Shown here: positions 34,215 through 58,510 of the stretch, in pieces
Numbering within the stretch: position 1 is the stretch's first letter
How the letters are laid out: the number at the start of each line of letters is the position of its first letter
NCBI GenBank assembly: GCA_020072645.1
Contig: JAIQGK010000017.1
Span: 124,001 to 188,000, forward strand
Length of the DNA stretch: 64,000 nt
DNA from: Terriglobia bacterium
GTDB lineage: Bacteria; Acidobacteriota; Terriglobia; Terriglobales; Acidobacteriaceae
Direction of reading: 5' to 3'
Translations under genes and position numbers: made by a program
The notes under the pieces: model-generated
Seen by the model: only the letters and a program-made list of their open reading frames with translations
Told to the model about the DNA's origin: nothing
Databases searched by the model: none

Positions 34215-34303
34215 GCCGGCGACCGTGGCCCGAAGGGCACGGATGGCCAGGAGGTTTTAGAGAAAGCTGCAAGTTTGATCAGTTGACCCTCGCGACACAA
34301 TTT

Positions 34304-34387: not shown

Positions 34388-34454
34388 ATTCAGTCCACAG
34401 CGTGACTGCCTCGGTCCCGAAAAACACTTTAGTGAGAGTGGAACGAGGGCATAG

Positions 34455-38351: not shown

Positions 38352-38356
38352 ACGGT

Positions 38357-42949: not shown

Positions 42950-43127
42950 TGCTCGAAAATCTTTACAATGCACTTACCGATCCCAACTTTACCGGGCGGT
43001 ATTGGGCGGGTACGCGTACCGCGTCAACTGCCAATGTTTGTTCACCGGGATCTCGGCGAGTATCGCGACTGCGGTAGACGATTCTGTGCTGAGAAAGCCT
43101 CCGCTTTCAACAAATCACATCAGCTTT

Positions 43128-44066
43128 CTATTCCACATGGAACAGCTTAGCGATTAGTTGGACTAGAGGGTTGTTTGGCCACGCAAACAAGACACATATG
43201 GTTCCTATCGTGCCTAGCAGCTTGGGCTTATGAACCAACCCATATCTCTGTGCAGAATAGATTGGCCCTTGAATCGCAGGCCAGAAAACAATGTGGCCCC
43301 CGGCCGCAACTGCAAGCAGGATGAAAAGCAGAGGAATCATAACAGTGATCAGGTTTGAAATGCTCACGATAAAGATGCTGAGCTCAAAGCTGCTTACAGG
43401 GCCACTACCTGCTCCCCAATAGAGGACTAGAGCTGGGCCAAGCAATAGCAAGGCCGCAGTTATATTGAAACCCAATAGTAAAATGATCAGCCATGCACTT
43501 GAAACGCCCTCACTTTTCCGCAGATACCAGCGGCTTGCCGCGATAAATACAATATCAGAGCCTACTCCGCCGAATAGAATTGCTAAAACCGGCAAGAGTT
43601 TATCTATAATCTGTCCGCTTTTCGTCGTTAGGGGAGCCGATATTAGCAGAGCGGTCCATGCGAACCCTAGATATCGAATTCTTCCCGGTGCCAATCCGAG
43701 TATCAGCAGCAGTATAGCGATTGCCAATCCCATTAGGGCCGTTCCCGGTCCCTTGTGAAAATGGATAAAGGACCAGAAGAGAAAGACAGCAGCAGAAGAA
43801 AGAGAAATAGAAGTCACAGCTGCTTTGGCCGAAAGCAGTTTTTTGCCAAATATCCAATCGAAAGTATGGCTCAAAAGTTTTGCGATTTGCTGCAAGAACG
43901 CTGCTTGGCGGCTGAGAGCCGTTCTTGACAGATCGTCCACACGAATCCACAACTCTTCCAACCGGTTCTGCAGGCCGCCTTCTGCAGTTTCGGTAAGGAA
44001 GAAAGCCATATATAGAAGAACCAATCCTAATAGTCCAATCAGCAGATGAAAGATGATCACTAGCAT
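43128..44066 (-). CDS. Uncharacterised multi-pass membrane protein
   Basis: 312 residues; family not recognised. About eight membrane helices: one at the N-terminus (IIFHLLIGLLGLVLLYMAFF), then a soluble helical stretch of about 60 residues (QNRLEELWIRVDDLSR) and seven more from residue about 85 on (SISLSSAAVFLFWSFIHF, LMGLAIAILLLILGLAPG, ITAALLLLGPALVLYWGAG, VMIPLLFILLAVAAGGHIV). A lower-GC, more AT-rich codon use than its neighbours suggests separate acquisition. It ends near the downstream tail of the giant barrel gene and lies beside tRNA fragment B. Confidence 0.72.
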   Translation of the reverse strand: MLVIIFHLLIGLLGLVLLYMAFFLTETAEGGLQNRLEELWIRVDDLSRTALSRQAAFLQQIAKLLSHTFDWIFGKKLLSAKAAVTSISLSSAAVFLFWSFIHFHKGPGTALMGLAIAILLLILGLAPGRIRYLGFAWTALLISAPLTTKSGQIIDKLLPVLAILFGGVGSDIVFIAASRWYLRKSEGVSSAWLIILLLGFNITAALLLLGPALVLYWGAGSGPVSSFELSIFIVSISNLITVMIPLLFILLAVAAGGHIVFWPAIQGPIYSAQRYGLVHKPKLLGTIGTICVLFAWPNNPLVQLIAKLFHVE

Positions 44067-44211
44067 GCAAATCCTTGGGCGATTAGTGTAGGTGGCAACC
44101 GGCGTATTTTCAATTTCTTTAAATCTGCGCCGGTAAAGGGCTTCTGCAAGCCTTTGGAAACAAAAAACTTTCCCCTCTCTCTTTCTCCCTAAAATTCAAA
44201 AAGACTCAAAA

Positions 44212-44262
44212 TCTGGTTTGGGACCAGGGGGTCGGAGATTTTAAATCCTCTCTCCCCGACCA
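44212..44262 (+). other. tRNA-Pro 3' half, attachment-site remnant B
   Basis: CTGGTTTGGGACCAG forms an anticodon arm with a TGG anticodon. The remainder (GGGGGTCGGAG...AAATCCTCTCTCCCCGACCA) nearly repeats 20034-20078. The T-loop is altered (TTTTAAAT for TTCAAAT) and no 5' half exists, so it is not a working tRNA. Confidence 0.8.
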
Positions 44263-44638
44263 TTTATTGTCAGCAAGATGCGCGCATTCCAAAGTCCTAA
44301 AAATTCCTGTTGTAGATAAAATGCAACGGTGTTGACCGCGCAGGTTTTTCTTGCAGAATTCCATTTGGCGATCAATCGAAAGATTCAGACTTTTATTTAA
44401 AGCCCAGCCCGGCCCTACTCTGCTGACATGTGTCTCTACAACCAGCAAAGCGAGAAGCAGAACTTGATTGCCTACGAAGCAGCTTACGGATTTCAGACGG
44501 CCAAGTCGCCTCTGATCGCTGTTTTGTTTCTTGCCTTTTCCCGTTTCGGGAAAGACGCATTTGTTGTTTGGGATTCAATGCGCGTAGATGCCCAAAGAAT
44601 GTGTAAGTAATTCTCTTAAGTTGAATTCATTCATTGCA

Positions 44639-44648
44639 CACAATTGTG
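44639..44648. promoter_or_regulatory. Palindrome CACAATTGTG
   Basis: Perfect 10-bp palindrome upstream of the respiratory operon; possible distal operator. Function inferred from place only. Confidence 0.4.
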
Positions 44649-44751
44649 AGTACATTATCGCTGCGTTGTGCTGCAACACTTTTTCTAACTATTGTCCCTG
44701 ATTTGCTCTTGACTTCCTGGTTCTGATGGGAGAGCATGATTCCTCTTTTTA

Positions 44752-44778
44752 TTGTATGCACAATATGTATACATATTT
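44752..44778. promoter_or_regulatory. Candidate GntR-type operator (TTGT-N6-ACAA and ATATGTATACATAT)
   Basis: TTGT-N6-ACAA at 44752-44765 abuts a perfect 14-bp palindrome ATATGTATACATAT at 44765-44778, about 100 bp before the first gene. GntR/FCD regulators often bind short AT-rich palindromes with a GTATAC-like core, and a GntR/FCD gene closes this cluster at 54342. The link is inference. Confidence 0.5.
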
Positions 44779-44879
44779 TTGTGGGATACATCAGCAATGA
44801 GGCTTCTCCAATGTTTGATGACGGTCGCGCGATCGGTTCAATTCAAGGGACATTCTGATCGATAGGACGGTATAAGGGA

Positions 44880-46406
44880 GTGCAAGGGAATACGCGAACA
44901 TTAATGGATGTGCGTGTTATCGCCGCAGCTCTTGCTGTCGCATTCATCTTAGTGTGCTCTATTTCAGCACAATCGCCGGTACGCCATACTGAAGGCAATT
45001 CCGTGACGAGCGGACGTGAGCTCTATAAAGTGCAATGCGCTTACTGTCACGGGACTGAAGGAAAAGGCGACGGGGAAGCGGCGCATCTTTTATTTCCAAG
45101 ACCACGCGATCTTGCGTCCGGCCTTTTCACATTGCGCTCCACGCCGGCAGGCTCTCCTCCCACTGATGATGATCTTTTGCGCACGATTACGCGGGGCATC
45201 CCCGGGTCCGGCATGCCGAGCTTCTCTTTTTTGAATGAGGCCGAGCGCAAAGCTCTGGTCGCCTATGTAGAGAGCATGTCGCCTAAGTTTTCTTCCATGC
45301 GGGCGAAGGAGAATCAGTCTCTAAGTTTGAGCGCTAAGCCCGCGGAGTCTGCTGAAATCGTTGCTGCAGGAAAAGCGGTTTATGAAAAGGCACATTGCGC
45401 GGCCTGCCATGGCACAGCAGGCCAGGGGGATGGAGAAGGGGCCCGTGATCTGGAAGACGATGCTGGCTTTCCCATCAAGGTACGCAACTTTACTACCGGC
45501 CCATTCAAGGGCGGAGCTTCAGTTGAAGATATCTATCTGCGAATCGCTACTGGGATGGATGGAACGCCCATGCGAGTACGTCCGGGCTTGAGCGAGATAG
45601 AGCGATGGCAACTGGCGTACTACGTCAAATCGCTTTGCAAAGCGGCTAGTTGTGATTCTACTCCCATGCCCGCCAGCGGCTTGCTCCTTTCAGCCAGGAC
45701 ACGACGCAAGCTGCCGCTGGATGATCCTTTTGCCGCATCCTGGAACAGCGCTCCTACGCTTCGCATACCGCTGAACTCTCTCTGGAACCGCGGCATCGCC
45801 GCGCCTGACCTGAGGGTGCGATCGCTTAACGACGGTCATACGATTGCATTTCTTCTGGACTGGAATGACAGCACGAAAAACTCGAGCACTGTTTTGCCGC
45901 AGGATTTCAGCGATGCTGTGGCCCTGCAATTCTTTTCCGGTCAAGGAAATGCCACGCTGGCCATGGGAGACACTAATACTGAAGTCACCATCTGGCAGTG
46001 GAAAGCTGACTGGCAAGAACATATCGATCGCGGACGGAGATCCGGGCCAGAAGACGCGCATCCATGGATGGTGAATGATCCCTATCCCGTGCCGGGCGCG
46101 GCAGCGGTTGAAGCAGGAAATCCCATAGCACTTACACATCGCCTAACCCCCGTTGAAGAGGCGACAGCCCGGGGCTTTGGTACGGTAACGCCAAAGCCCC
46201 TGGGATCACAACTGGTCGCGGGAAAAGGTGTATGGCGAGACGGGCAATGGCATGTGGTGCTCTCACGCGCGATTGCGACGAATAGCGGTATTCGAAGCGA
46301 AGGTGAAACCAGGCTTGGCTTCGCCGTGTGGGACGGAAGCCAGGGCGATCGCGAAGGGCAGAAAGCAATTTCCACCTGGTACACCCTGATGCTGGGGCGA
46401 AAGTGA
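44880..46406 (+). CDS. Di-haem cytochrome c fused to ethylbenzene dehydrogenase-type haem subunit (gamma-like)
   Basis: 508 residues from GTG 44880; ATG 44904 (MDVRVIAAALAVAFILVCSI) is an equally good start with a Sec signal. Two cytochrome c haem sites, CAYCH and CAACH, occur in two tandem cytochrome c domains (to about residue 255). The C-terminal 240 residues (RIPLNSLWNRG...HTIAFLLDWNDSTKN...AVALQFF) match the EB_dh domain that holds a b-type haem in gamma subunits of type II DMSO-reductase enzymes (ethylbenzene dehydrogenase, chlorate/selenate reductase, NxrC-like). It should carry electrons between the Fe-S beta subunit and periplasmic carriers. Confidence 0.88.
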   Translation: MQGNTRTLMDVRVIAAALAVAFILVCSISAQSPVRHTEGNSVTSGRELYKVQCAYCHGTEGKGDGEAAHLLFPRPRDLASGLFTLRSTPAGSPPTDDDLLRTITRGIPGSGMPSFSFLNEAERKALVAYVESMSPKFSSMRAKENQSLSLSAKPAESAEIVAAGKAVYEKAHCAACHGTAGQGDGEGARDLEDDAGFPIKVRNFTTGPFKGGASVEDIYLRIATGMDGTPMRVRPGLSEIERWQLAYYVKSLCKAASCDSTPMPASGLLLSARTRRKLPLDDPFAASWNSAPTLRIPLNSLWNRGIAAPDLRVRSLNDGHTIAFLLDWNDSTKNSSTVLPQDFSDAVALQFFSGQGNATLAMGDTNTEVTIWQWKADWQEHIDRGRRSGPEDAHPWMVNDPYPVPGAAAVEAGNPIALTHRLTPVEEATARGFGTVTPKPLGSQLVAGKGVWRDGQWHVVLSRAIATNSGIRSEGETRLGFAVWDGSQGDREGQKAISTWYTLMLGRK

Positions 46407-46436
46407 AACTACGCTACCAATCAAAGGAGAAATGAA

Positions 46437-46775
46437 ATGGCCGACAAGGAGTTTGAGTCGGAAGACCCGATGCAACTGGTCGGCACGCTCATGGAGTGCG
46501 ATGAAGAAGAGATCGAAGAGATGGGGCTGACTTTTGTCGAGGAGTTCGCGCGGATGCGATGGACGCGTGAAGAGATTATGGCTATTTTCGCCAATCCGCA
46601 TTATCGCGGCCCGCACACCGTATATCGCGCCAAGGGGCCGGCTTTTATTTCTCGATTGATCGACCTGGTTACCGGCGTTAGTCCCGCCGCAACTTGTTCC
46701 ACGGATACTTTTTCTCATCCGCAAGAAAACGCCGGGACGGCAAGTTCCAAACAGGAAGGTAAGTGCGATGCCTAA
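46437..46775 (+). CDS. Small uncharacterised protein in the molybdoenzyme operon
   Basis: 112 residues, with GGAGAAATG start context. It is acidic at the N-terminus (ECDEEEIEEMG), then FARMRWTREEIMAIFANPHY. No metal motif, no signal peptide. It overlaps the beta-subunit gene by 8 bp, so it is co-translated with it. Possibly an assembly or maturation factor; family not recognised. Confidence 0.7.
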   Translation: MADKEFESEDPMQLVGTLMECDEEEIEEMGLTFVEEFARMRWTREEIMAIFANPHYRGPHTVYRAKGPAFISRLIDLVTGVSPAATCSTDTFSHPQENAGTASSKQEGKCDA

Positions 46776-47967
46776 AGTCTATAACTGGCAATTGGGCCGG
46801 CCGATGGAGTTTCCACGGCCACAGCAGCGTCCTAAAAGGCAATTTTCCGCCGTGTTCAATATCAATCGCTGCATTGGGTGCCAGACTTGCACAATGGCAT
46901 CCAAAAGCACCTGGACCCATTCGCCGGGACAGGAAGCAATGTGGTGGAACAACGTGGAGACAAAGCCTTTCGGCGGCTATCCGCATGGTTGGGACATAAA
47001 GACGCTTGAACTGCTGGGACCGCAACCAGGCTGGCAGCAGAGTGGCGCAAAAGAAGCAGACGTGAATACTTCAGGCCCTGAAAGCGCTCCCTATGGAGTG
47101 TATGAAGGGCAGACGCTGTTTGAAGCGGCCTTGAATCGTGTCTCTGGGAGCGAGCAAAAAGTTGTGGGCTATCTGCCTGCTGACCATGAGTGGCGCTATC
47201 CGAATATCTATGAGGATTCGCCCAATGAGCATCCTGAAATCAAAGATGGGATCACGACCCGTGGGTCCCAGCTTCCTGAGCACAAAACTTTCTTCTTCTA
47301 TCTGGCAAGGATATGCAATCACTGCACGTACGCAGCTTGCCTGGCAGCTTGTCCTAATAACGCGATTTATAAGCGCCCGGAAGATGGAGTTGTTTTAATC
47401 GACCAGGAGCGCTGCCGCGGGGAGAGGAAATGTGTGGAGGCGTGCCCCTACAAAAAGGCCATGTATAACCAGGCGACGGGAACATCGGAAAAATGCATTG
47501 CCTGTTATCCGCGCCTTGAGGGCAAAGACCCTATCACCCAGGGCAAGCCGATGATCACGCGGTGTAACGCAGCCTGCGTCGGCAAAATTCGATTGCAGGG
47601 CTGGGTCGACGATCCTGAAGGTCCGCTGCATTTTCTTGTGCATAAGGAAAAAGTCGCTTTACCGCTTTATCCGCAATTCGGCACCGAGCCGAACGTGTAT
47701 TACATTCCGCCGCGCTGGGCGCCACGCAAATATCTGGAACAGATGTTTGGGCCGGGCGTTGAGCATGCCATTGAACGCTACACGAATCCATCGCATGAGC
47801 TGCTTGGTGTATTGCAGCTTTTCAACTCAATCCAGGTGGTTATCTCCAAATATAAGGTGGCGGAAAAAGAAGCCATTGGCTATGACGACGATGGCCGTGA
47901 ACTGGTGCGCGTCCCAATTGAAGAACCGATCTATATCCGTCCTAAAAAGCATTTGAACATTACTTAG
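46768..47967 (+). CDS. Four-cluster Fe-S beta subunit of a type II DMSO-reductase-family enzyme (NxrB/NarH-like)
   Basis: 399 residues. Four cysteine sets are visible: CIGCQTC near the N-terminus; CNHCTYAACLAACP; CRGERKCVEACPYKK; and CIACYPR with a later RCNAACVGK. This is the NarH/NxrB/ClrB/EbdB layout, housing [4Fe-4S] clusters plus one [3Fe-4S]-type site. It shuttles electrons between the Mo subunit (49315-52668) and the haem subunit. No signal peptide, so it is probably exported in complex with the Tat-bearing alpha subunit. Confidence 0.93.
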   Translation: MPKVYNWQLGRPMEFPRPQQRPKRQFSAVFNINRCIGCQTCTMASKSTWTHSPGQEAMWWNNVETKPFGGYPHGWDIKTLELLGPQPGWQQSGAKEADVNTSGPESAPYGVYEGQTLFEAALNRVSGSEQKVVGYLPADHEWRYPNIYEDSPNEHPEIKDGITTRGSQLPEHKTFFFYLARICNHCTYAACLAACPNNAIYKRPEDGVVLIDQERCRGERKCVEACPYKKAMYNQATGTSEKCIACYPRLEGKDPITQGKPMITRCNAACVGKIRLQGWVDDPEGPLHFLVHKEKVALPLYPQFGTEPNVYYIPPRWAPRKYLEQMFGPGVEHAIERYTNPSHELLGVLQLFNSIQVVISKYKVAEKEAIGYDDDGRELVRVPIEEPIYIRPKKHLNIT

Positions 47968-47988
47968 CAAGGAAACTGGAGTTCCGGT

Positions 47989-48867
47989 ATGCAAGAGATG
48001 AAATCAATGGCCTCGGCGGGTGCTATGCAGAACTCGGCAGGCATGCTTCCGTCCACCAATACCATGGCAGGCGAGAGCAAACGAGGCCGCACGGCGCGAA
48101 GCCGAGCCATGGTTTATTCCATCCTGGCCCAGGCTTTGTCCTCGCCAAGTGAGGCGCTTTGTTTGGCAGTCAGGGAAGGAGCCCTCAGTGCCTTGCTTGG
48201 CGTTGCACTCGAGGATGCACCGCCTGCTCATCGTCGCATGATCGAAGCCGGCTTGCTGGAGAGCTTTACGGCAATCTCCGGCGATGAATCTTTCGCCGGC
48301 GCAATTTTGGCCGAATACACGCGTCTGTTTTCATCAAACCTGCACTGCATGCAATACGAGGCCGACTACTTGGGGCGAAACGCAGAAAACTCTGTGCATG
48401 TAATTGCGGCAATCGCCAGCATGTATTCCACTTTTGGCGTCAGATTGGCGGACACAGTTGGAGAGCGCCCTGATCACATTGCCGTTGAGCTGGACTTCAT
48501 GAATTTTCTTGCCGCCAAAGAAGCCTATGCCAGTGACAGGAACCAGGTTGCGAACGCCGGATTGTGCCGTCGCGCGCAAGTCTATTTCTTGAGCAAACAT
48601 CTGGCCCGCTGGGGCCGCATGTTCGCCGGCAATCTTGCGCAGGCGACCATAGCATCTTTTTACCGCTCTATTTGTGAGCTTCTGGATCGATTCCTTGCCG
48701 CCGAAACCAGGTATTTCAAGATTGAAATCTCGCCGGTTATGCCGCAGGAAACCAATGCTTCAGAAAAGTGCGGCTGCAATCACTGTTCAGGGACTAACGC
48801 TGAGCAGCCGAAGGAACTGGTGCAGCTTACCGGGCTTGTTCAAGAAATGATGAGCAGAAGCGACTAG
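47989..48867 (+). CDS. TorD/NarJ-family molybdoenzyme chaperone
   Basis: 292 residues. The helical core has the TorD signature region: YTRLFSSNLHCMQYEADYLG, then EVELDFMNFLAAKEAYA-like text (VELDFMNFLAAKEAYASD), and FLSKHLARWGRMF. The C-terminal tail has CGCNHCSG, an extra cysteine cluster not in classical TorD. It would bind the alpha-subunit signal, allow cofactor loading, and hold back Tat export. Its place between beta and alpha genes is as in chlorate reductase and related operons (delta subunit). Confidence 0.88.
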   Translation: MQEMKSMASAGAMQNSAGMLPSTNTMAGESKRGRTARSRAMVYSILAQALSSPSEALCLAVREGALSALLGVALEDAPPAHRRMIEAGLLESFTAISGDESFAGAILAEYTRLFSSNLHCMQYEADYLGRNAENSVHVIAAIASMYSTFGVRLADTVGERPDHIAVELDFMNFLAAKEAYASDRNQVANAGLCRRAQVYFLSKHLARWGRMFAGNLAQATIASFYRSICELLDRFLAAETRYFKIEISPVMPQETNASEKCGCNHCSGTNAEQPKELVQLTGLVQEMMSRSD

Positions 48868-48906
48868 AGATTCCCGCAAGAACGAACCTAAAAGGAGACG
48901 TGAGTT

Positions 48907-49275
48907 ATGGCTTCCCCCGCCACCGTGAATGTTGAGATTGCAGGTAAAGCTCCGGTCATTCTTACCCCAGTCGCTATTGAAAAGGCGAAACAGTTTATCT
49001 CTGAGAAAACACCTGTGCCTGCCGGGTTGCGGATTGGCGTAGCCGGCGGCGGCTGTTCTGGATTTACCTACTCCATGCACTTTGAGAACGTTGCCGGTGA
49101 GATGGACAAGATATACGGCTTTGACGGGCTGGCGGTTTTTATTGATGCCACGTCAGCCATGTATCTGCAGGGCTGCGTTGTGGATTATGAAGACACTCCA
49201 GACGGCGCCGGTTTCATCTTTGAAAATCCTAATCAGAAGACCACTTGTGGATGTGGATCTTCCTGCAGCGCTTAA
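48907..49275 (+). CDS. IscA/ErpA-type iron-sulfur carrier protein
   Basis: 122 residues, GGAGACGTGAGTT ribosome-binding region. The A-type carrier cysteines are present: GGGCSGFTY and, at the C-terminus, TTCGCGSSC (Cys-x-Cys plus an added Cys). It donates Fe-S clusters to apo-enzymes. Being inside this operon it is probably dedicated to the alpha and beta subunits, which need at least five clusters. Confidence 0.92.
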   Translation: MASPATVNVEIAGKAPVILTPVAIEKAKQFISEKTPVPAGLRIGVAGGGCSGFTYSMHFENVAGEMDKIYGFDGLAVFIDATSAMYLQGCVVDYEDTPDGAGFIFENPNQKTTCGCGSSCSA

Positions 49276-49314
49276 GACAGTAGTGCGGCGGCCAGTTTGC
49301 CAGAAAGGACTCTC

Positions 49315-52300
49315 TTGACCACAACTCGACGCGAAGCTCTCAAATACATGGGAACAGTTTTTGGCGCCGCGCTCTTAAACGGCAAAACCACATTGCTCTC
49401 GCCGCTGGACTCGATTGGAAATCTTCTGGATTTTTTCCCCAGCCGCGGATGGGAAAAAGTTTATCGCGACCAATACAGCTATGATTCCACCTTCAATTTC
49501 CTGTGCGTGCCGAACGACACGCACAATTGCCGCTTGACGGCCTTCGTCCGCGATGGTGTGGCTCTCAGAATTGAACAGGCTTATGACATGGGCGGAGTCG
49601 GCGATCTTTATGGCAACAAGGTTTCTGCCGGGTGGGCGCCGCGTGGATGCCTGAAAGGTTACACGCTGGTCCAGCGAGTTTACGGACCGCATCGCCATAA
49701 GTTTCCCACTGTGCGCAAATGCTGGCTGGAGTGGGCGGATGCTGGGTTTCCGCGCGAGGGAGATTACGTCGAGAGATATTTTAAAAAGCGCGGTGAGGAC
49801 GATCGCGTCCGCGTTAGCTGGGACCAGGCCTTTACCCTGATCGCAAAGGCAATTCTCAATATCACGCAGACATATGGCGGGGCGGAAGGCGCGGCGTTGC
49901 TTGAGAGACAAGGCTATCCCAAGCCGATGATCGACCAACTTGGCGGCGTTGGCACGCAGGCCATCAAGATGCGCTCAGCCATTGCTGCATGCGGGCCGGT
50001 GTCAAAGCAAGGAGCGCTGGTTCGCTTTGCCAATATGCTTGCCCTGGTGGATACGCATGTACGCAAGGTAGAACCGGCGCAGGCAAAGGGCGCCCGCCAT
50101 TGGACAACTTATGAATATCTTGGCGACATGGACCCCGGCTTCCCCCAGGTTACAGGAGTCAACTCCTTTGATGTTGACATGGCTGATATGCGCCACAGCA
50201 AGCTGGTGGTGGTGATTGGCAAGAATTTTGTCGAACACAAGATGGCTGATGTGCATTGGATGGTAGAGGGTATGGAGCGCAAGGCCAAGATTGTCGTGAT
50301 CGGGCCCGACTACAACCCTACGTCGCAAAAAGCTGATTCGTGGATTCCCGTCCGGCCTGGCTCCGATACGGCGCTCCTGCTGGGCGTCGCCAATCTCATT
50401 ATCCAGAAAAACTATCACGACGAAACTTTTATCAAGAAGCACTCTGACATGCCTTTGCTCGTGCGCCTGGATACGCTCAAAAAGCTGCGCGCCGCGGACA
50501 TTATTCCCAACTACAAGAACGCGGAAAATACCGGCTACAGCGCGGAAGTCCAGAAGATCGATCCCAAGATGCGGGCGCAATGGGGCGACTACGTGGTTTG
50601 GAATGCAAAGACCAACCAGCCGGCGGTGATCACGCGCGAAGACGTAGGCGACAAAATGCTGGCCAAAGGAATTGACCCGGTTCTGGATGGAGAATTCACC
50701 GTGCAAACCGTGGATGGGAAGCCGGTTCGCTGCCGTACTGGGTTCAGCATTCAGCGGGAAGTGCTCTCCTATTACACCGTGGAGCGAGTTTCGCAGATCA
50801 CGAGCACGCCGCCGAATTTGATCGAGCAACTGGCGCATGACATCGGCACCATCAAGCCGTGCGCGATGCATTCCGGCGAGGGGGTAAACCACTACTACCA
50901 CGCGGACCTTAAAGGCCGAGCCGTCATTATGCTGTGCACCTTGACCGGCAATTTGGGCACCTTTGGAGCAGGACCAGGAACGTGGGCCGGCAATTACAAA
51001 GTCAATTCCATGGATGGTCTGCCCGCGTATGTGGCGGAAGATCCCTTCAACCCCAATGAGGCCACGCCGAAACTCCGCAAGACGTACACCGAAGAGCATC
51101 CGGTGTTCTGGGTGAATGGCGGGCCAACGTGGGCGACGGGAAAGACCCACATGCCTACGCCCACGAAAATGATGTGGACGGCAAACACCAACATGATCAA
51201 CAACTGCCCATGGCTTTATAACCTGCTCACGCATGAGCTGCCCAAAGTGGAGTTGTTCATCAATAATGATTGGGAATATAACCTGAGCTGCGAATACTCT
51301 GATATCGCGCTGCCGGTCCCAAGCTGGCTGGAGACAACCCTTCCGGATATTGTGGGCTCGGCTTCCAATCCTTTTTGCAGCATCTGGAAAGGCGGAATTA
51401 AACCGATCTTCGATACGAAGATGGATGCGGAAACGGTCGCCGGCGTGGCGCGCAAGCTGACAGAGATGACCGGAGATTCTCGATTCGAAAACTACTTTAA
51501 ATACATTTTGGAAGGGAAAGCGGAGTTTTACATCCAGCGCCTGATGGACGCTTCAACCACGCTCAAAGGCTATAACTGCGAGGAAATCCTGAAGTCGGGC
51601 CGCTCCGTCCTCATGAACTTCCGCACCTATCCACGGATTACGGGATATGAGCAAATCCAGGAGAGCGCGCCGTTTTACAACAAGACAGGACGACTGGAGT
51701 TTTACCGCGAAGAGGATACCTTTATTCGCGAAGGTGAAAATGTTGTCGTTCACCGCGAGCCGATCGAAGCCACACCCTATCTGCCCAACGTAATTATTTC
51801 TGGGCCGGCTGCGGGGCTCCGGCCTGAGCCACGAAATATTCCTGTTACCGCCACCAGCGCGGATGACAGAGGCAAGCGCAACCTTGTCTTGCCATGGGAA
51901 AAGGCGAAGGACATAGAGAATCCGCTTCACGCCAGGGGCTACAAATTTGTATTTATCAGCACCAAAACGCGGCATTCCACGCATTCCTCATGGATGATGG
52001 CGGACTGGAACAAGATGTGGATCTCCAGCTTTGGCGATCCTTACCGCAGTGACAAAAGATCACCAGGAGTTGGCGAGCCAGAGATCAGGATCAATCCACA
52101 AGATGCCAAGGCATTGGGCATCAATGACGGCGATTACGTGTGGGTGGATGCCAATGATGAGGACCGTCCTTATAAAGGATGGAAACCGGATGATCCGCTG
52201 TACCAGGCGGCGCGCCTTAAGTTGCGTGGCCGTTATGATCCCCGTGTTCGTCCTGGAATGGTCATTTCACGCCATGCGCCCTGGGCGGCAACGCCAAGAA

Positions 52301-52668
52301 CTGTAGCCGCACAGCGCAATCGCAAAGATGGGCGCACTCTCAGTGACAGCGGTTATGAATCCAATTTCCGGAGTGGCTCACTGCAAAGCTGCGTGCGGGT
52401 TTATTGCCAGCCCACCATGATGACCGATGACCTGATACGAAAAAATTCAGTCGGGCAGGGCATTGGACAAGGGCAAGGCAATGATGCCTATGGCGTGAAC
52501 ACTCCTTACAAGGAAGCCCTGGTAAGGATTACAAAGGCTGAGGACGGCGGCATTGATGGCCACGGGCAGTGGGAGCCTACGCTCACAGGATTTACTCCCG
52601 GCAATGAGAGCGCAACCATGCGCGAGTACCTGGAAGGCAGCTTTATCAAGAATAAATCTGACTCATGA
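49315..52668 (+). CDS. Molybdopterin alpha subunit, type II DMSO-reductase family (NXR/NAR-like), Tat-exported
   Basis: 1117 residues from TTG 49315 (AAAGGA seven bases upstream). The N-terminus TTRREALKYMGTVFGAALL is a twin-arginine signal. CVPNDTHNCRLTAFVRDGV and later RGCLKG hold the Fe-S ligands in the form known for NXR-like enzymes. YEYLGDMDPGFPQ supplies a likely Mo-ligating Asp (D271) as in NarG (by comparison of flanking text, inferred). Molybdopterin-binding segments include VVVIGKNFVEHK and DSWIPVRPGSDTALLLG. Size is as in NxrA/NarG (about 1100-1250). No membrane anchor (NarI) gene is near, so it is a soluble periplasmic complex. Substrate could be nitrite, nitrate, chlorate or related. 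Confidence 0.9.
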   Translation: MTTTRREALKYMGTVFGAALLNGKTTLLSPLDSIGNLLDFFPSRGWEKVYRDQYSYDSTFNFLCVPNDTHNCRLTAFVRDGVALRIEQAYDMGGVGDLYGNKVSAGWAPRGCLKGYTLVQRVYGPHRHKFPTVRKCWLEWADAGFPREGDYVERYFKKRGEDDRVRVSWDQAFTLIAKAILNITQTYGGAEGAALLERQGYPKPMIDQLGGVGTQAIKMRSAIAACGPVSKQGALVRFANMLALVDTHVRKVEPAQAKGARHWTTYEYLGDMDPGFPQVTGVNSFDVDMADMRHSKLVVVIGKNFVEHKMADVHWMVEGMERKAKIVVIGPDYNPTSQKADSWIPVRPGSDTALLLGVANLIIQKNYHDETFIKKHSDMPLLVRLDTLKKLRAADIIPNYKNAENTGYSAEVQKIDPKMRAQWGDYVVWNAKTNQPAVITREDVGDKMLAKGIDPVLDGEFTVQTVDGKPVRCRTGFSIQREVLSYYTVERVSQITSTPPNLIEQLAHDIGTIKPCAMHSGEGVNHYYHADLKGRAVIMLCTLTGNLGTFGAGPGTWAGNYKVNSMDGLPAYVAEDPFNPNEATPKLRKTYTEEHPVFWVNGGPTWATGKTHMPTPTKMMWTANTNMINNCPWLYNLLTHELPKVELFINNDWEYNLSCEYSDIALPVPSWLETTLPDIVGSASNPFCSIWKGGIKPIFDTKMDAETVAGVARKLTEMTGDSRFENYFKYILEGKAEFYIQRLMDASTTLKGYNCEEILKSGRSVLMNFRTYPRITGYEQIQESAPFYNKTGRLEFYREEDTFIREGENVVVHREPIEATPYLPNVIISGPAAGLRPEPRNIPVTATSADDRGKRNLVLPWEKAKDIENPLHARGYKFVFISTKTRHSTHSSWMMADWNKMWISSFGDPYRSDKRSPGVGEPEIRINPQDAKALGINDGDYVWVDANDEDRPYKGWKPDDPLYQAARLKLRGRYDPRVRPGMVISRHAPWAATPRTVAAQRNRKDGRTLSDSGYESNFRSGSLQSCVRVYCQPTMMTDDLIRKNSVGQGIGQGQGNDAYGVNTPYKEALVRITKAEDGGIDGHGQWEPTLTGFTPGNESATMREYLEGSFIKNKSDS

Positions 52669-52750
52669 ACTGCGGGATATGGAGGATTGCTAATTGTGCG
52701 CCTGATGCGATAGTGGCCGCACTGCACGTTCAAAGAGGATATGACCTTGC

Positions 52751-53494
52751 ATGGTAAGCAGAGAACAACTCACGGGCGCACCTTCTTTCGTGATCATCGC
52801 AGCTTTTAAGCTGCTGCCTGAGTGGGCACAGGCTGACGACTCGATTCGCGCACTCGCGGCGGCGGAGTTGACCGGAGTGCTTACCGAATCATCGCAAAGA
52901 GTTGAGGCCAGCATCTACCTGAGCCAGGGGCTTAAGGCCTCGGCCGATTTTTTTCTCAGGATCCATGCCAATGATCTGGCGGAAGCCCAAAGTTATGTCA
53001 ATGAATGTGCGCAGACCATCATCGGCCGCCACTCGCTAATCGCCGACATCATGATCGGCATCTCCAAACCGCGCCGTTACATTACGCAAGAGAACTCGGC
53101 CCGGCTCAATGAGCAGCTGAACAACAGCAAATATGAAAGCGCAACGCCGCGCTATGCCATTGTGATTCCGGTGAAGAAAACCGCGCGCTGGTGGAACATG
53201 CCTGAAAGCGAACGCCTGCATGAGATTGAGGTGCACACGCAAAAGTCGCTTGCCTACATGAGTTGTGTGAAACGCGAGCTCTATTACAGCACCGGCCTGG
53301 ACGAGCAAGACTTTATTACCTATTTCGAGACAGCTGATCTCCAGGCATTTCATGAGCTAAATGCCGCGCTGGCAGGCATTCGTGAAAATGAATTTCAGAT
53401 CAGATGCGAACACCTCATGCTGCTGGGGGCCATCCGCAGCGTTTCTGAAATTGCGCGTATTTTAAGCCGGCAACCAGCACCTGATGCTACTTGA
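52751..53494 (+). CDS. cld: Chlorite dismutase-family protein with catalytic His/Arg pair
   Basis: 247 residues, the long (pentameric, clade 1) size class, no signal peptide. The core reads IEVHTQKSLAYMSCVKRELY, then YSTGLDEQDFITYFET. H162 fits the haem ligand and R175, exactly 13 residues on, the distal Arg needed to split chlorite into chloride and O2 (H160/R173 in the Nitrospira enzyme, from memory). HemQ coproheme decarboxylases of the same fold lack this Arg, so dismutase activity is likely. It follows the molybdoenzyme gene by 82 bp. Confidence 0.85.
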   Translation: MVSREQLTGAPSFVIIAAFKLLPEWAQADDSIRALAAAELTGVLTESSQRVEASIYLSQGLKASADFFLRIHANDLAEAQSYVNECAQTIIGRHSLIADIMIGISKPRRYITQENSARLNEQLNNSKYESATPRYAIVIPVKKTARWWNMPESERLHEIEVHTQKSLAYMSCVKRELYYSTGLDEQDFITYFETADLQAFHELNAALAGIRENEFQIRCEHLMLLGAIRSVSEIARILSRQPAPDAT

Positions 53495-53538
53495 TACAGC
53501 TGTTCTCAGTTTAATTCCAACTACGAGGAGCAAGAAAA

Positions 53539-53892
53539 ATGAGAAAGAAGTTACTAATGCCTATCTGCGCAGCTTCATTGCTGGGAGTTGCGATGACGGC
53601 TTCCGCGGTCCGGACAACCGCCGCAGCTTTTGAAGACAAAGCGGCAAGCGTTACCGTGAAGATGATCAATTTTACCTACTCTCCCGATCCGTTGACGGTG
53701 CCGGTGGGGACCACTGTGCGCTGGGTCAATTATGACGACGATCAGCACAACGTGGTGAGTGACGACAAGAGTTTCAAGTCGAAGCTGCTGGACAAGAACC
53801 AGGAGTACTCCTACACGTTCACCAAAAAAGGAACATACCGATACATCTGCTCAATTCATCCCAAGATGGTTGGCAAAGTAACTGTTGAGTAG
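53539..53892 (+). CDS. Cupredoxin (plastocyanin/amicyanin-like) electron carrier
   Basis: 117 residues. Sec signal peptide (LLMPICAASLLGVAMTASA), then a single cupredoxin domain. Type 1 copper ligands: H in DDDQHNVV, and C, H and M in CSIHPKM. This is the small amicyanin-like class. A probable electron donor or acceptor of the molybdoenzyme complex via its haem subunit. Confidence 0.92.
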   Translation: MRKKLLMPICAASLLGVAMTASAVRTTAAAFEDKAASVTVKMINFTYSPDPLTVPVGTTVRWVNYDDDQHNVVSDDKSFKSKLLDKNQEYSYTFTKKGTYRYICSIHPKMVGKVTVE

Positions 53893-53901
53893 GCAAGCCG
53901 C

Positions 53902-54345
53902 ATGCACCCATTCGATATCAAAACGGCGCTGATGGCGAAACATGCTCAGCATGTAGTGTTGATTCATTTTCCCATCGCATTATTCTTGTGCGGCACTGTG
54001 TTTGACTTTTTGGCGCAATGGACGCACAAAGCCACTCTGGCTGCAGCCGCCTATTACAACCTGATTGTTGCGGCCATAATGTCTTTGCCGGTTGTAATCA
54101 CCGGCATCCTGGCTTGGCGACTACAACTGGAGGGCCAGTCTCTGAAGGGAGTTCTGCTGCAACATCTGGTGCTCGCAGTGGTTTCAACGGTGCTGATCTG
54201 GCTGGCGTGGTGGCTGCATTTTCGCGCAATACGTTCTGAGCGTGCCGTGCCAAGCTATCGGCTTGCAGTGGAGTTCGCGGGAGTCATCACGATTACCCTG
54301 GCGGCGCATCTGGGTGGGTTTTTGAGCGGTGTAAATCTTCCCTAG
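53902..54345 (+). CDS. DUF2231-family membrane protein
   Basis: 147 residues with four membrane helices. HAQHVVLIHFPIALFLCGTV is the family start with conserved His residues, and AAHLGGFLSGV closes it. DUF2231 proteins are thought to bind haem or pass electrons, but their role is unsettled. It overlaps the GntR gene end by 4 bp, convergently. Confidence 0.85.
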   Translation: MHPFDIKTALMAKHAQHVVLIHFPIALFLCGTVFDFLAQWTHKATLAAAAYYNLIVAAIMSLPVVITGILAWRLQLEGQSLKGVLLQHLVLAVVSTVLIWLAWWLHFRAIRSERAVPSYRLAVEFAGVITITLAAHLGGFLSGVNLP

Positions 54346-55088
54346 GATAGTTTTCTGCGCCGGTTGCCTTGTAGCGCTGAAGCCTGGCGATCAAAATCAG
54401 CTACGTAAATTCGGGCAATCCCCCGACGAACGACTTGTACCATGTCTTGAAGCTTGCGAGAAACGTGTTTCTGAATGGCTTGAATCGCACTTTCAGCATC
54501 TCGCGCCTGCAAAGCGCGGGCCACCGTTACGTGATCTCCAAGGGATCGGCTTCGTGGCCTGCCTTCCATATCAATGAGCCGGACAAAACGAATGCGCGCG
54601 TTTACGCTTTTCAATGCTTCAGTTAATTGTGCATTGCCTGAGAGCCGTGCGATTTCTTCATGGAATTGCTCATCGAGTTCCACAATGCGTTCCACAGAAC
54701 AATCCGCGGGCTCGCGGTTTGCGAGTCTCGCCATTTTTGACAGAAGGGAAAGCTCCTCGTCACTAGCGCGCTGTACCGCCAATCGGACGGCCGTACATTC
54801 CAGGGCAAGACGGAGTTCATAAAGATCAAAGCACTCTTTGGGGTTGAGGTCGCGCAGCGAGAAGCCTCTTCCATCGGCGCTCAGGAAGCCTTCATTGACC
54901 AGCCGATTTAAAGCCTCGCGAACGGGAGTCCGTGATACGGAGAACCTTTCCGCGATATCTAATTCTGTCAGCCGTTCACCGGGCTTGAGCTTGAATGTGA
55001 TCGCCATCTCACGCAAGCTGGAATACACCCTGTCGGATTCACGAACGTCGGGAGCGAGTGGCGTATGCCGATTCTGGGCTTGAGGCAT
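54342..55088 (-). CDS. GntR-family (FCD/FadR-type) transcriptional regulator
   Basis: 248 residues. N-terminal winged helix: LTELDIAERFSVSRTPVREA then LNRLVNEGFLS. The C-terminal all-helical FCD domain shows LYELRLALECTAVRLA, the D/E-x3-H metal site in ELDEQFHEEIARLS, and DHVTVARAL with the last His. Such proteins respond to organic acids and usually repress neighbouring genes. Convergent with the respiratory cluster, whose upstream region has palindromic operator candidates. Confidence 0.9.
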   Translation of the reverse strand: MPQAQNRHTPLAPDVRESDRVYSSLREMAITFKLKPGERLTELDIAERFSVSRTPVREALNRLVNEGFLSADGRGFSLRDLNPKECFDLYELRLALECTAVRLAVQRASDEELSLLSKMARLANREPADCSVERIVELDEQFHEEIARLSGNAQLTEALKSVNARIRFVRLIDMEGRPRSRSLGDHVTVARALQARDAESAIQAIQKHVSRKLQDMVQVVRRGIARIYVADFDRQASALQGNRRRKLS

Positions 55089-55362
55089 TGGTTTTGTCCG
55101 ACTGCTAGATTATATGGATTTTTGGCTGGTGTGCACAGATCGAAAGTGAGGAGGAGGGTTTGGCAGCCATTTCAGATGTGCTAGGCCTGTTTTTGACAGA
55201 TTTGTGAGTGTGAAAGCCTGCAGCTTCACAGATCGCTACAGTTTCGGTAAACGCCCAAACGGGCCCAAAACGGCCTAGAACAGGCTTAATAACAGTCACT
55301 TACAGTCTTGCGTGGATTTTCTATAGATTCCAATGGACCCTAAAAATCTCATTCGGAATTAC

Positions 55363-55391
55363 AGTTGGAGGTTCAAATCTCTGTCCGACCA
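55363..55391 (+). other. Decayed tRNA-Pro 3' fragment, attachment-site remnant C
   Basis: TTGGAGGTTCAAATCTCT then GTCCGACCA retains the T-arm and acceptor end with small deletions. The following CATTTATT also matches the flank of fragment B (CCGACCATTTATT), so B and C share about 13 bp across the CCA boundary. Confidence 0.6.
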
Positions 55392-55454
55392 TTTATTACG
55401 AGTGCCATTAGCGCAAACATAGCGGAAGACTGGGCGTTGTCCGAGCAGGCCAGC

Positions 55455-55630
55455 CCAACAGCGCGTACCGTCGTTGTGGTGAACCGCTTATTTGAAAAAG
55501 ACATATTCAAGGATGGCCGCGCCATCGGAAAAACACTTCAGCAATAGCCAAGACATCTCAGGCATTCTCGAGATCGTGGGAATGACCGAAGATACAAATT
55601 ATTGGTTGCGCCTATGTACCACGGCAATCC
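55455..55630 (+). pseudogene. Relic of a MacB/ADOP-type ABC permease
   Basis: TVVVVNRLFEKDIFKDGRAI then GKTL matches the periplasmic-domain text VAVVNE..F..FP....IGKR of FtsX/MacB-like permeases, and is followed by a stop. In a shifted frame from 55561 EIVGMTEDTNY continues it (usual EIVGVVGDV..Y). Stop plus frameshift and no flanking domains show a broken gene. Such duplicated permeases abound in Acidobacteriota. Confidence 0.65.
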
Positions 55631-55875
55631 TTCTGATCGAACCAATGAAATTAAGAAGCATAGCTTAGTACTTCCCGCGCTTTCTATCAAAATGGCGCGA
55701 CCTCCCGGGTTTACCCAAGAACCGCTCGTAAGTTTCCCTATTCTGCCAAAAAAGCATCTCAGAGAAGGTGGATTTCGTCCGAACGCTTTGGGGTTGCGCA
55801 TGAGGCCCAGTGCTTATGCGGCAAGCCTTACGTGGCAAAGGCCTTATGTGATAAAAACTTAGGGAGCAGACTGTG

Positions 55876-56439
55876 ATGAGCGCGAAGATAAGGAACTGGA
55901 CTGCAGCCCTGCTTTTCCTGGCCGCCACGTGTATCGGTGGGGCAGGGAGGCAGGCTGAAGGACAGCTCCGCTGGGACTATCCTCCCAAGAAAGCGCCCAT
56001 ACGCTTGCGCCTGGTTGCCATAGCTTTTGCTGACCACCCTCGCTCTTCTTTCTTCTCCAGCCAGGAAGTGTTCGTTGCCGAAACCGAGATCTCGCACGAA
56101 GAGTGGGGTCTCATCAAGCTCGTCTTCACCTTTCTCCCATATGAGCCCCGGCTGTCGGAATCCGGCTTTGATTACTCAGTGGTCCATGAGGTCTCAGCCT
56201 GGCGAGACGAGGCTTGCGACCAGACCATTGCGCAGTTAACGGCGCGGAGCCAGCCTGATCGCCATGAGCCGTTGATCTATTCTCGTAACGTGCCTAGAGA
56301 GGACCTGGACCGCAGACGCATCCCGCTGCCCTGCTATGAAACGACGGCGAATGAATATATAAAATCGAGCTTCGAGCCTGTTCCTCAGCCCCTGAAGCCA
56401 CATGGACCTGTTCTTGAGGTCCCTCCAAACTCGAAATGA
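55876..56439 (+). CDS. Secreted protein of unknown function
   Basis: 187 residues from ATG 55876 (GTG 55873 adjacent; GGGAGCAG upstream). Signal peptide NWTAALLFLAATCIGGAG. The rest has a beta-rich middle (LRLVAIAFADHPRSSFFSSQ, GLIKLVFTFLPYEP) and a Pro-rich C-terminus. Three cysteines. Family not recognised. It stands alone, downstream of the permease relic. Confidence 0.65.
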   Translation: MSAKIRNWTAALLFLAATCIGGAGRQAEGQLRWDYPPKKAPIRLRLVAIAFADHPRSSFFSSQEVFVAETEISHEEWGLIKLVFTFLPYEPRLSESGFDYSVVHEVSAWRDEACDQTIAQLTARSQPDRHEPLIYSRNVPREDLDRRRIPLPCYETTANEYIKSSFEPVPQPLKPHGPVLEVPPNSK

Positions 56440-56904
56440 CGGCCAGCGGGTATGGCAAACCCCTTCCGCTTCTTCTCTAATCACCCCCACTTTGGATCGC
56501 CCATCGTTCGCGCACATTGCGAAGGCGGATTTCAAGCACCGTTAGAAACCCAGTTTGCGCTCAGCGCTCGGCAAAAGGGCTCAAAAAATCAGGGTTACTC
56601 CAAGCCTGAGCAGCAGAATAGATGCTGAAAACAAAAGGCTTAACCTCCATACCAGCTTTTCCTGGGTGATCGATGAAACGCTTAAGCCCCGTTTATCACT
56701 AGGTATTTGTAAGGCGGTTAGCCATAAGGTGGGCGAGCCGCAGTTCCCGCATTACTGGAGCGAGCGTGACGTCGGGAAAACAAGAACTCCAAGCCGGAGG
56801 CGGTGGCCTCCCCGCACTAACCCTGGACGGTCGAGAGTCAGCGGTGTCGGGGTCTTCAGCGGGAGGATACTTTTGCCGGAGCTCGTATCGGGAGAGTTTC
56901 TGAA
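56440..56904. other. Intergenic region before the ECF sigma operon
   Basis: About 465 bp. Open frames here look like chance (no signal, no pattern, poor start). It should contain the promoter of the sigma factor. Confidence 0.5.
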
Positions 56905-57606
56905 GTGAAAAGCGCGTCTTTGCAATCACGGACCAGCAAGAAGAAAGGGGCGGGCACTTTGTTGACCTACTCCGCTTCAGGTGTGTCCGTAGGCGCCACA
57001 AAACGGAAATCAGCAGCAAAGGCTGAAGTATACTGGATTGAAAGATCTCCAGTGGACTTCTACTCTTTCGATGAAGAATACCTGCGCCGCCTCGGGGCCC
57101 ATGATCCTGCCACCGAAGCTCATTTTGTCGCCTACTTTAGTGAACGGCTAAGAATCACTTTGCGTGCGCGCGGCATTGACTCGCACACGATTGAAGATGT
57201 GCGCCAGGAAACGTTTTGCCGCGTATGGGTTGCCGTCCAGTCCGGCAGCGTAAATAATGCGCAGGGGTTCGGCGCTTATGTGCATGCGGTTTGCAAGAAT
57301 GTTCTTTCAGAAAGCCGCCGGGTTGACATCCGCAACCAGCACGATTCCCTGGATGGGACTGATGTTATTGATCAGCAACTTAGCCTGGAAGAATTGATGC
57401 AGCGAAGTGAGAACAGCACCCTGGTGCGCGCCATTCTGGCTGAGCTTCCTGAAAGGGACCAGCACTTGCTGCAGGCGCGTTTCTTTGAGGACCGCGATAA
57501 TGAAGAAGTTTGTGGCGATTTTGGTGTGGATCGCGACTACCTTCGTGTCCTGTTTCACCGGGCCATTCAAAAGTTTGGGGAACTTTACAAGAAAAAATTT
57601 AACTAG
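56905..57606 (+). CDS. ECF-type RNA polymerase sigma factor
   Basis: 233 residues, GTG start with GGGAGAG upstream. Region 2 is seen in TIEDVRQETFCRVWVAV, with YVHAVCKNVLSESRR next, and region 4 in LAELPERDQHLLQARFFEDR then DNEEVCGDFGVDRDYLRVLF. A basic N-terminal extension of about 45 residues is unusual. The zinc-finger anti-sigma gene follows 36 bp later. It shares EAHFVAYFS near the N-terminus and region 4 text (EVC..GV.R.YLRVL.HRA) with the sigma factor at 61895-62572, so the two are paralogues. Confidence 0.9.
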   Translation: MKSASLQSRTSKKKGAGTLLTYSASGVSVGATKRKSAAKAEVYWIERSPVDFYSFDEEYLRRLGAHDPATEAHFVAYFSERLRITLRARGIDSHTIEDVRQETFCRVWVAVQSGSVNNAQGFGAYVHAVCKNVLSESRRVDIRNQHDSLDGTDVIDQQLSLEELMQRSENSTLVRAILAELPERDQHLLQARFFEDRDNEEVCGDFGVDRDYLRVLFHRAIQKFGELYKKKFN

Positions 57607-57642
57607 CAGGCCGATAGCTGCGCAAATCCAGGGGAAAAGACG

Positions 57643-58314: not shown

Positions 58315-58510
58315 CTGGTTCCGGGCTTTTGACACGGTTTGACGCAGTATGTTTTCCCTACGCTATCTCTCTTCCGGCGGCACAACTCTTCGCCAATAAT
58401 CGGCCGTAGTACAATCGGCGTATTCGGGCCCAAAGACACCCCCTCGCTTTATGGTGTCTATAAGTGTGCCCAGCCCAGTTGTTTATCCGCTGTAGTACAT
58501 GGAGAAAAAA

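Follow-up and report, generated by a model that had tools for sequence, protein, structure and literature searches.

To our knowledge, the list of lineages credited with nitrite oxidation is short. A gene cluster at positions 44880-54345 of the window, meaning the whole 64,000-nucleotide stretch of Terriglobia DNA analysed here, raises the question whether a bacterium outside this list carries a nitrite oxidoreductase (NXR), and what such an enzyme would do there. If it works as predicted, a module of the NXR type, intact and under selection in an apparently aerobic member of another group, would be an overlooked nitrate source (or sink), and the altered residues near its molybdenum would be a natural experiment on what sets substrate and direction. 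The host may accordingly contribute to the nitrogen cycle in a way so far unrecognised, with an enzyme activity predicted from sequence.

A complete NXR/NAR-like molybdoenzyme module was found, as the sequence-only reading had proposed, and all of its named genes are open reading frames with profile matches. On the forward strand, the module begins with a gamma subunit (44880..46406), in which a pair of haem-c domains, marked by CxxCH motifs (residues 53 and 173), is fused to an EB_dh/NxrC-type haem-b domain, and a small conserved protein (46437..46775), which neighbours NXR-like genes both in clade A and in clade C of the alpha tree described below. These are followed by an NxrB-like beta subunit (46768..47967), a TorD/NarJ-type assembly chaperone (47989..48867), an A-type Fe-S carrier of the IscA/ErpA family (48907..49275), the NxrA-like molybdoenzyme alpha subunit (49297..52668), a chlorite dismutase (Cld) of the large type (52751..53494), a cupredoxin as candidate electron carrier (53539..53892) and a DUF2231 membrane protein (53902..54345). 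A GntR/FCD regulator on the reverse strand (54342..55088) converges on these genes and is only a possible member of the module. None of the ten proteins scanned by profile was NarI, in line with the earlier claim that a NarI-type anchor is missing, and the locus does not classify as NarGHI. All of the canonical type II models (TIGR03477/03478/03479/03482) were matched, each below its curated NCBIfam cut-off (alpha 332 of 985, beta 283 of 481, gamma 103 of 170 and chaperone 82 of 152 bits), indicating that the module is not a member of a canonical type II subfamily.

The closest well-characterized counterpart is NXR-ABC of Kuenenia stuttgartiensis (7b04), with homology running end to end in both catalytic subunits. 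The alpha subunit scored 1132 bits (residues 10-1118 of 1123 aligned, 46.5% identity), and other references were far weaker (PcrA 215, EbdA 126 and NarG 97-103 bits); the beta subunit scored 537 bits against 7b04_A (residues 2-397 of 399). Gamma matched 6h5l over residues 44-258 (193 bits) and 7b04_C over residues 303-507 (71 bits). Profile matches agreed with these assignments: TIGR03479 for alpha (1e-98), TIGR03478 for beta (3e-84), Cytochrom_C (1e-23) and EB_dh (3.5e-22) for gamma, Nitrate_red_del for the chaperone (5.8e-17) and TIGR00049 for the Fe-S carrier (9e-31), with matches of 1e-13 for the cupredoxin and 1e-15 for DUF2231. The small protein had no library name, and no Pfam match in 19 members improved on E 0.025. 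A fold search of the PDB at E 0.001 yielded no match and a search of solved structures none that was convincing; a four-helix core is predicted for it.

The main ligands of the enzyme are retained. In Kuenenia numbering, alpha keeps the residues at C67, N70, D71, C75, C115 and D275, giving an FS0 ligand set of three Cys and one Asp, with Asp275 as the molybdenum ligand. The first FS0 position (67) is Cys, not His as in membrane-bound NarGHI, and position 71 is Asp in 49 of the 55 aligned rows and Cys in six. Gamma Met362 and Lys495 align with the haem-b ligands of 7b04_C (residues 155 and 305). One beta cluster ligand is replaced: Ser45 stands in place of the Cys present in the other 15 distinct betas. 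Comparison of alpha with its nearest relative gave a pN of 0.12 against a saturated pS of 0.78, which indicates purifying selection. The alpha leader carries a twin-arginine motif, TTTRREALKYMG, and gamma and the cupredoxin have Sec-type leaders, all read by eye; the TTG start of alpha was assigned by its open reading frame only, with no ribosome site evident upstream. Alpha would be exported by Tat with beta carried along, and the module, given this predicted export route, encodes an NXR-family enzyme that is soluble and periplasmic. The ligand set, Asn70, the NxrC-type haem-b ligands and the Tat-type leader of alpha are all shared with Kuenenia NXR. The differences are the modest alpha identity, the haem-c domains, which are fused to gamma here, and the altered residues beside the molybdenum ligand. 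For comparison, the NXR of Kuenenia and those of nitrite oxidisers are reported to share ~60% identity (PMC8387239).

Phylogenetic analysis placed alpha in a clade of its own within the NXR-like family. This clade C comprises alpha and two metagenome-assembled relatives (82% and 73% identity) with full support, is set apart from clade A at 100/100 and has a long stem (0.64-0.68 changes per column). The NarG-like and type II rows of the class fall outside the family (SH-aLRT 100). A grouping of alpha with ClrA, whose branch is long, was rejected (p-AU 0.0036), and forcing clades C and A together gave a p-AU of 0.077 in a tree without Nitrospira or Nitrospina; the Natronococcus plasmid row and a second ClrA row were left out of the tree behind these tests. 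Together with the weak bit scores and low identities, the tree position led us to reject alpha as a member of ClrA/PcrA or NarG. The deep order among clade C and the three other clades appears undecided in this tree. The places of Nitrospira, Nitrospina and Nitrotoga, all outside the tree, were taken from published identity figures: clade C is 44.8-46.5% identical to Kuenenia alpha, and Nitrotoga ~40% by the figure given in PMC8387239. The alpha family is present in 27 of 399 genomes of the class, with >50% identity only in this genome. No further relative besides G341 was found in the family and order of G341 (39 and 40 genomes), and none was found in viral contigs. Two genomes of the same class and genus (G004 and G007) carry clade D NXR/NAR-like enzymes of the same superfamily and ligand set, but these are 40-42% identical to alpha by search and lie at another locus.

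Co-encoding of Cld with the molybdoenzyme was likewise borne out by a PF06778 match (3.8e-26) inside the cluster. His162 and, 13 residues on, Arg175 align with 2vxh, and we take these to be the axial His and the catalytic Arg of chlorite dismutase. The protein scores below the cut-off for both HemQ models that it matched, and the plasmid proteins that it matches best (38.9%) are Clds from chlorate-reductase clusters. These features would suit a dedicated chlorate reductase acting with Cld in a new chlorate respiration, and the ClrABDC and Cld clusters on plasmids of Ideonella dechloratans and Alicycliphilus denitrificans similarly combine molybdoenzyme alpha, beta, chaperone, gamma, Cld and a c-type cytochrome. 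There, however, Cld lies on the opposite strand, and alpha is only ~24% identical to named ClrA proteins, in addition to the rejected grouping. The Cld studied here is also without a signal peptide, as the in-frame extension upstream of its ATG amounts to two residues only. The chlorate or chlorite pathway put forward by the sequence-only reading is therefore lowered in the form of a dedicated respiration, which we consider very improbable. The account of Barnum and Coates (PMC9751292), where a missing signal peptide on Cld is used as an argument against respiratory (per)chlorate reduction by such enzymes, points the same way, with pNxr-like enzymes accompanied by a periplasmic or cytoplasmic Cld being thought not likely to perform dissimilatory (per)chlorate reduction. 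Cld beside NXR-like enzymes is thus already in print there: their soil-metagenome pNxr-like enzymes, compared here by description only, share the neighbourhood, cytoplasmic Cld included, whereas here the whole cluster lies in a 99% complete genome. Cld is also described as a recurrent neighbour of reductases for which chlorate is an accidental substrate (PMC9751292), and Candidatus Nitrotoga fabula, whose NXR is periplasmic and outside the Nitrospira type, encodes Cld as well (PMC6050957). A second Cld-family gene is present in the host genome (G000) and one each in G004, G006 and G007, which makes the Cld of the cluster an extra one.

Clade C differs from the rest of the family at Kuenenia positions 123, 272, 273, 287, 327, 661, 916 and 1060, where all three of its rows deviate from 52 others that show little or no variation. 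Three of these eight positions are close to the molybdenum ligand in sequence. Around that ligand clade C has Tyr/Phe272, Leu273 and Asn287; elsewhere it carries Pro661 and Thr916. In the 52 remaining rows, positions 272, 287, 661 and 916 do not vary, and 273 is His/Arg. The type II/NarG outgroup mostly keeps the usual residue (8/8 rows at 327, 661 and 916; 7/8 at 272 and 287). The Nitrotoga molybdenum-site pattern is given as Y-4x-D-11x-QM (PMC6050957), the other pattern of the Nitrospira and Nitrotoga types being Y-4x-D-11x-QN, whereas that of clade C reads Y-4x-D-11x-N, then S, A or T. Since N stands in 3/3 clade C rows where 52/52 others have Q, clade C was filed under neither Nitrospira-type nor Nitrotoga-type NXR. 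The substrate of clade C may have shifted, judging from these residues, and its long stem is compatible with a remodelled molybdenum pocket acting on something other than nitrite or nitrate. This explanation is nevertheless improbable: the proposed substrate-binding Asn70 and the ligand Asp275 are kept, and the deviating positions, which may or may not face the substrate, were chosen for being different in a sample of only three rows.

We hypothesize instead, at about even chances, that the module encodes an enzyme able to interconvert nitrite and nitrate in both directions, which the host would use for supplementary nitrite oxidation while Cld clears chlorite formed by accident. Alpha would exchange oxygen with nitrite/nitrate at the Asp-held molybdenum, and electrons would pass from the Fe-S clusters of alpha and beta through the gamma haem b to the two fused haem-c domains, and from there via a soluble cytochrome c or the cupredoxin to a haem-copper oxidase. 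The fused haems and the cupredoxin are paralleled in the anammox nxr cluster, reported to encode a di-haem cytochrome of ~+350 mV and blue copper proteins (PMC11791136). Cld would shield the cell from chlorite arising when the enzyme accidentally acts on chlorate. The host genome has three COX1-family matches and none for RuBisCO, the sole CO2-fixation enzyme searched. No second NarG-like gene was seen in alpha and beta searches; other matches to alpha reached at most 47 bits, compared with 57-64 bits for the NarG-like genes of class relatives (12 of 13 candidates scored), and those to beta at most 43 bits. In an apparently aerobic host without RuBisCO and without a visible NarG, supplementary nitrite oxidation (mixotrophy) would be most likely, rather than autotrophic nitrification. 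Counting against this reading, besides the altered clade C residues and beta Ser45, Acidobacteria were labelled in a biofilter SIP study, yet its account credits nitrite oxidation to Nitrospira only (PMC6831773).

As the NXR family is bidirectional, the sequence gives no direction, a point also made in PMC10732223, and purified Kuenenia NXR is reported to run both ways, reducing nitrate with viologen (PMC8387239). The same enzyme in reverse would be a periplasmic nitrate reductase, drawing electrons from the cytochrome c or bc1 level at low oxygen. Enzymes of known nitrate reducers have been placed near Nitrotoga NXR (PMC6050957), and cytochrome b genes follow the NXR genes in two clade B loci (L116 and L118, the latter also with a Rieske gene), a layout through which quinol electrons could enter; that no other NarG-like gene was seen in the host also favours reduction. 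On the other hand, the profile scan of the window cluster revealed neither a quinol dehydrogenase nor NarI or bc genes, the COX1-family matches speak against reduction, and the fused haems c and the cupredoxin would suit an electron-releasing enzyme, which leaves nitrate reduction rather unlikely. As a broader proposal, which we put forward tentatively and consider less likely than not, clade C may stand apart biochemically as one more type of periplasmic enzyme in the NXR family, with its molybdenum pocket remodelled. It would have moved between phyla, in many cases along with a Cld-family gene, and would give apparently aerobic, RuBisCO-less bacteria outside the known nitrifier groups energy from nitrite or another oxyanion.

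The suggestion that the module is carried on an island held in part. It lies in an accessory segment of ~12.7 kb (42956..55640) that was not seen at the matching flanks of G004 and G006, but no recombinase was present among the segment proteins scanned, no tRNA was found, and a clean empty site was not obtained in a sister species, the G006 flanks being on different contigs. Some of its genes have kin elsewhere: relatives of the Fe-S carrier (71-73% DNA identity) occur at other places in the same genome and in four sister genomes, and 53632-54227 (the cupredoxin end and DUF2231) has 65-69% matches elsewhere in its own and sister genomes, so that the tie of these genes to the enzyme is not specific. 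The GC content of the segment is 0.525, compared with 0.549 for the window; the GC3 of the right-flank genes resembles that of the module, and composition was for this reason not useful as proof of transfer. A binning error is unlikely, as the module is on a 208,624-base contig and its flanks match sister species at 88-91%.

The module consists of nine tightly ordered genes on the + strand (44880-54345), encoding gamma, a small protein, beta, a chaperone, an A-type Fe-S carrier, alpha, chlorite dismutase (Cld), a cupredoxin and a DUF2231 protein, and a GntR/FCD regulator (54342-55088) is convergent to it. The sequence-only reading had placed alpha, beta, gamma, chaperone, Fe-S carrier, Cld, cupredoxin and DUF2231 together without a NarI-type anchor. 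Both points were borne out; no NarI was detected among the ten proteins scanned. Canonical type II subfamily models were matched, yet all under their curated cut-offs.

A PDB search aligned alpha residues 10-1118 to 7b04_B, nitrite oxidoreductase (NXR) subunit A, at 1132 bits; the runner-up, at 215 bits, was a type II enzyme, perchlorate reductase. 7b04 is the Kuenenia enzyme. The residue numbers given in PMC8387239 fit its chain, which bears out this identity, and locus L085, from a planctomycete genome in our set, is 100% identical to its alpha chain. The window alpha is 46.5% identical to Kuenenia 7b04 alpha, and in the alignment it retains the residues at Kuenenia positions C67, N70, D71, C75, C115 and D275, among them the FS0 and Mo ligands. 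Beta residues 2-397 aligned to 7b04_A at 537 bits, with ethylbenzene dehydrogenase at 237 bits, and Cys was found at 14 of 15 majority-Cys positions. At position 45 the window beta has Ser, and all 15 other distinct betas compared have Cys (18 of 21 loci gave a beta, giving 19 rows with the window and 16 distinct ones after removal of three duplicates). A non-Cys residue here has precedent, since Nitrospira defluvii has Asp at the matching place (PMC6050957). Gamma is a fusion, in which residues 44-258 matched 6h5l, a cytochrome of solved structure that has two CxxCH motifs (193 bits), and residues 303-507 matched NXR-C (71 bits). Its own CxxCH motifs lie at 53 and 173, and Met362 and Lys495 align with NXR-C residues 155 and 305, described as haem-b ligands (PMC8387239). 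Judged by homology and ligands, membership of the enzyme in the periplasmic NXR superclade is as good as certain.

Trees revealed four clades of NXR-like alphas: clade A, with the anammox type, other planctomycetes and members of the host's class; clade B, from small planctomycete genomes; clade C, with the window and two metagenome-assembled relatives, L021 (82%) and L024 (73%); and clade D (~40%), mostly from the host's class and including the sister genomes G004 and G007, which share the host's genus. An SH-aLRT support of 100 separated these clades from the NarG-like and type II rows of the host's class, and clade C was supported at 100/100. The best tree joined C and D at 52/22 support; holding C and B together cost 0.46 log units (p-AU 0.44), A and B 4.8 (p-AU 0.26) and C and A 10.6 (p-AU 0.077). 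Identity to Kuenenia was 55% or more in clade A, 53.4-55.4% in B, 44.8-46.5% in C and 37.6-41.2% in D. Kuenenia NXR is reported to share ~60% identity with nitrite oxidisers and ~40% with Nitrotoga and Hydrogenobaculum (PMC8387239), and clade C therefore matches neither of these two values. A further NXR-like alpha stretch (37.5%) was observed on plasmid 2 of Natronococcus occultus (L159), in two pieces with no CDS listed and with 4Fe-4S and TorD-family genes next to it; a disrupted gene, a misassembly or an incomplete gene table could each account for this.

Seventeen of 171 alignment columns were invariant in 30 rows of clades A, B and D, yet each of the three clade C rows deviated from them, in some cases by a gap. 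Seven of these columns and position 273, chosen because they differ, were followed in a larger set of 55 alphas above 700 bits with repeats removed (32 from clade A, 4 from B, 3 from C and 16 from D, where identity to Kuenenia served to separate A from D). Gln123, Tyr/Phe272, Leu273, Asn287, Lys/Gln327, Pro661, Thr916 and Val1060 (Kuenenia numbering) were unique to clade C, with its few (three) rows, and the other 52 alphas were invariant at all eight positions save 273 (His in 47, Arg in 5). Positions 272, 273 and 287 are near Mo ligand 275 in sequence, and 287 corresponds to Q in the Mo-site pattern given in PMC6050957. Unlike Nitrospira-type and Nitrotoga-type NXR, the window enzyme does not fit the Mo-site pattern of either. 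It likely works on nitrite/nitrate, and the gene context favours net nitrite oxidation over nitrate reduction.

The sequence-only reading had proposed nitrite oxidation or a chlorate/chlorite pathway. The best solved-structure match of the window Cld was 2vxh (210 bits), a perchlorate reducer's enzyme; the protein is 38.9% identical to the Clds of the Ideonella and Alicycliphilus chlorate-reductase clusters, and His162 and Arg175 are present. Nevertheless, chlorate respiration by this module is unlikely, as grouping of clade C with ClrA was rejected (p-AU 0.0036, to be read with caution because ClrA is a long branch). The Cld has no signal peptide, since the in-frame extension before its ATG is only two residues. 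According to PMC9751292, leaders are missing from basal lineage 1 Clds; the same paper reports soil metagenome contigs where Cld adjoins uncharacterised pNxr-like enzymes, and it speaks against a respiratory function of the latter. The host genome contains a second Cld-family gene, and G004, G006 and G007 of the same genus contain one each.

The link to Cld is weak in the relatives. In L024, from an uncultured proteobacterium whose genome has a RuBisCO match, gamma, alpha, small protein, beta and chaperone are followed, after a ~0.46 kb gap, by a short Cld-family gene with a weak match to PF06778 (34 bits) and no NCBIfam match. The L021 contig is 3.5 kb long and carries only alpha; it is weakly assigned to a Verrucomicrobiota bin in which no Cld match was found. 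In the clade B planctomycete loci L116 and L118, gamma-alpha-beta-chaperone is followed by cytochrome b genes and large cytochromes, a cytochrome c among them, and by a Rieske gene too in L118, possibly forming a quinol-linked NXR/NAR system; Cld was absent from the two clade B genomes searched. The small protein belongs to a family with the core DP...EE...LF...G, whose clade A and C members are encoded beside NXR-like genes. Of its 22 distinct rows across loci, 19 were aligned (L092, L095 and L122 were excluded for doubtful starts): the window (46437-46775) and L056, L084, L123, L078, L091, L093, L090, L094, L052, L082, L089, L087, L058, L059, L096, L035, L065 and L057. None of the 19 had a convincing Pfam match, and a PDB fold search with the predicted four-helix core gave no match.

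An alpha match at 1e-120 was present in 27 of 399 genomes drawn from the host's class (best two candidates per genome scored): besides this genome at 100%, seven matched at the level of clade A (46-50%) and 19 at that of clade D (40-42%). One genome of this class, G052, has two NXR-like loci, on contigs C323 (47%) and C176 (50%, partial). In the planctomycete phylum, 67 of 294 genomes drawn had a match at 1e-150 (best 55%), and in the order of genome G341 only G341 itself had one at 1e-100 (1 of 40). Nitrite oxidation is named among annotated features of Acidobacteriota genomes (PMC11245096), and planctomycete NxrA-like genes are reported with a direction not assignable from sequence (PMC10732223). 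In a biofilter, nitrite oxidation was credited to Nitrospira alone (PMC6831773).

The window covers C17:124001-188000 in a 6.4 Mb genome with 99.14% completeness and 0.22% contamination. Searches of this genome, with 12 of 13 alpha candidates scored, detected no further hit to alpha above 47 bits and no further hit to beta above 43 bits; on these two results a NarG appears to be absent. Neither a 16S gene nor a RuBisCO match was found in it, and three matches to the COX1 family, which also covers NO reductases, were above cut-off.

The left flank matched G004 (33903-42955, 91%) and G006 (39947-42947, 91%), and the right flank matched G006 (55641-59357, 88-89%), with right-flank matches in G004 at 74-76% on other contigs. 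Beyond the left flank, G004 and G006 resemble neither the window nor each other: the window from 42956 onward, G004:C16 and G006:C317 all diverge just past an OmpA-type gene (38348-42949), like a variable accessory-gene site. With matching flanks and a divergent interior, the module therefore sits on a genuine contig of this genus, within a segment that varies. This agrees only in part with the earlier suggestion of an island. Neither the cupredoxin/DUF2231 pair nor the Fe-S carrier is confined to the module. For 53632-54227, the cupredoxin/DUF2231 stretch, other parts of the host genome and five sister genomes gave matches at 65-69%. It has a second copy on the same contig (C17:63429-63959, 67% identical) and is thus a wider feature of the genus. 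The Fe-S carrier has 71-73% matches in the host and at most five sister genomes, and alpha/beta pieces of the segment match clade D genes in G004 and G007. A dispersed ~50 bp repeat, with many copies in sister genomes, occurs at 44211-44272, to the left of the module, and at 20033-20088; by eye it resembles the 3' half of a tRNA, and ARAGORN found no tRNA in the window. The module is also adjoined by a large locus (31632-42949) with ExbB/ExbD genes, a DUF11/SdrD-type protein of 1298 aa and an OmpA-domain protein of 1533 aa.
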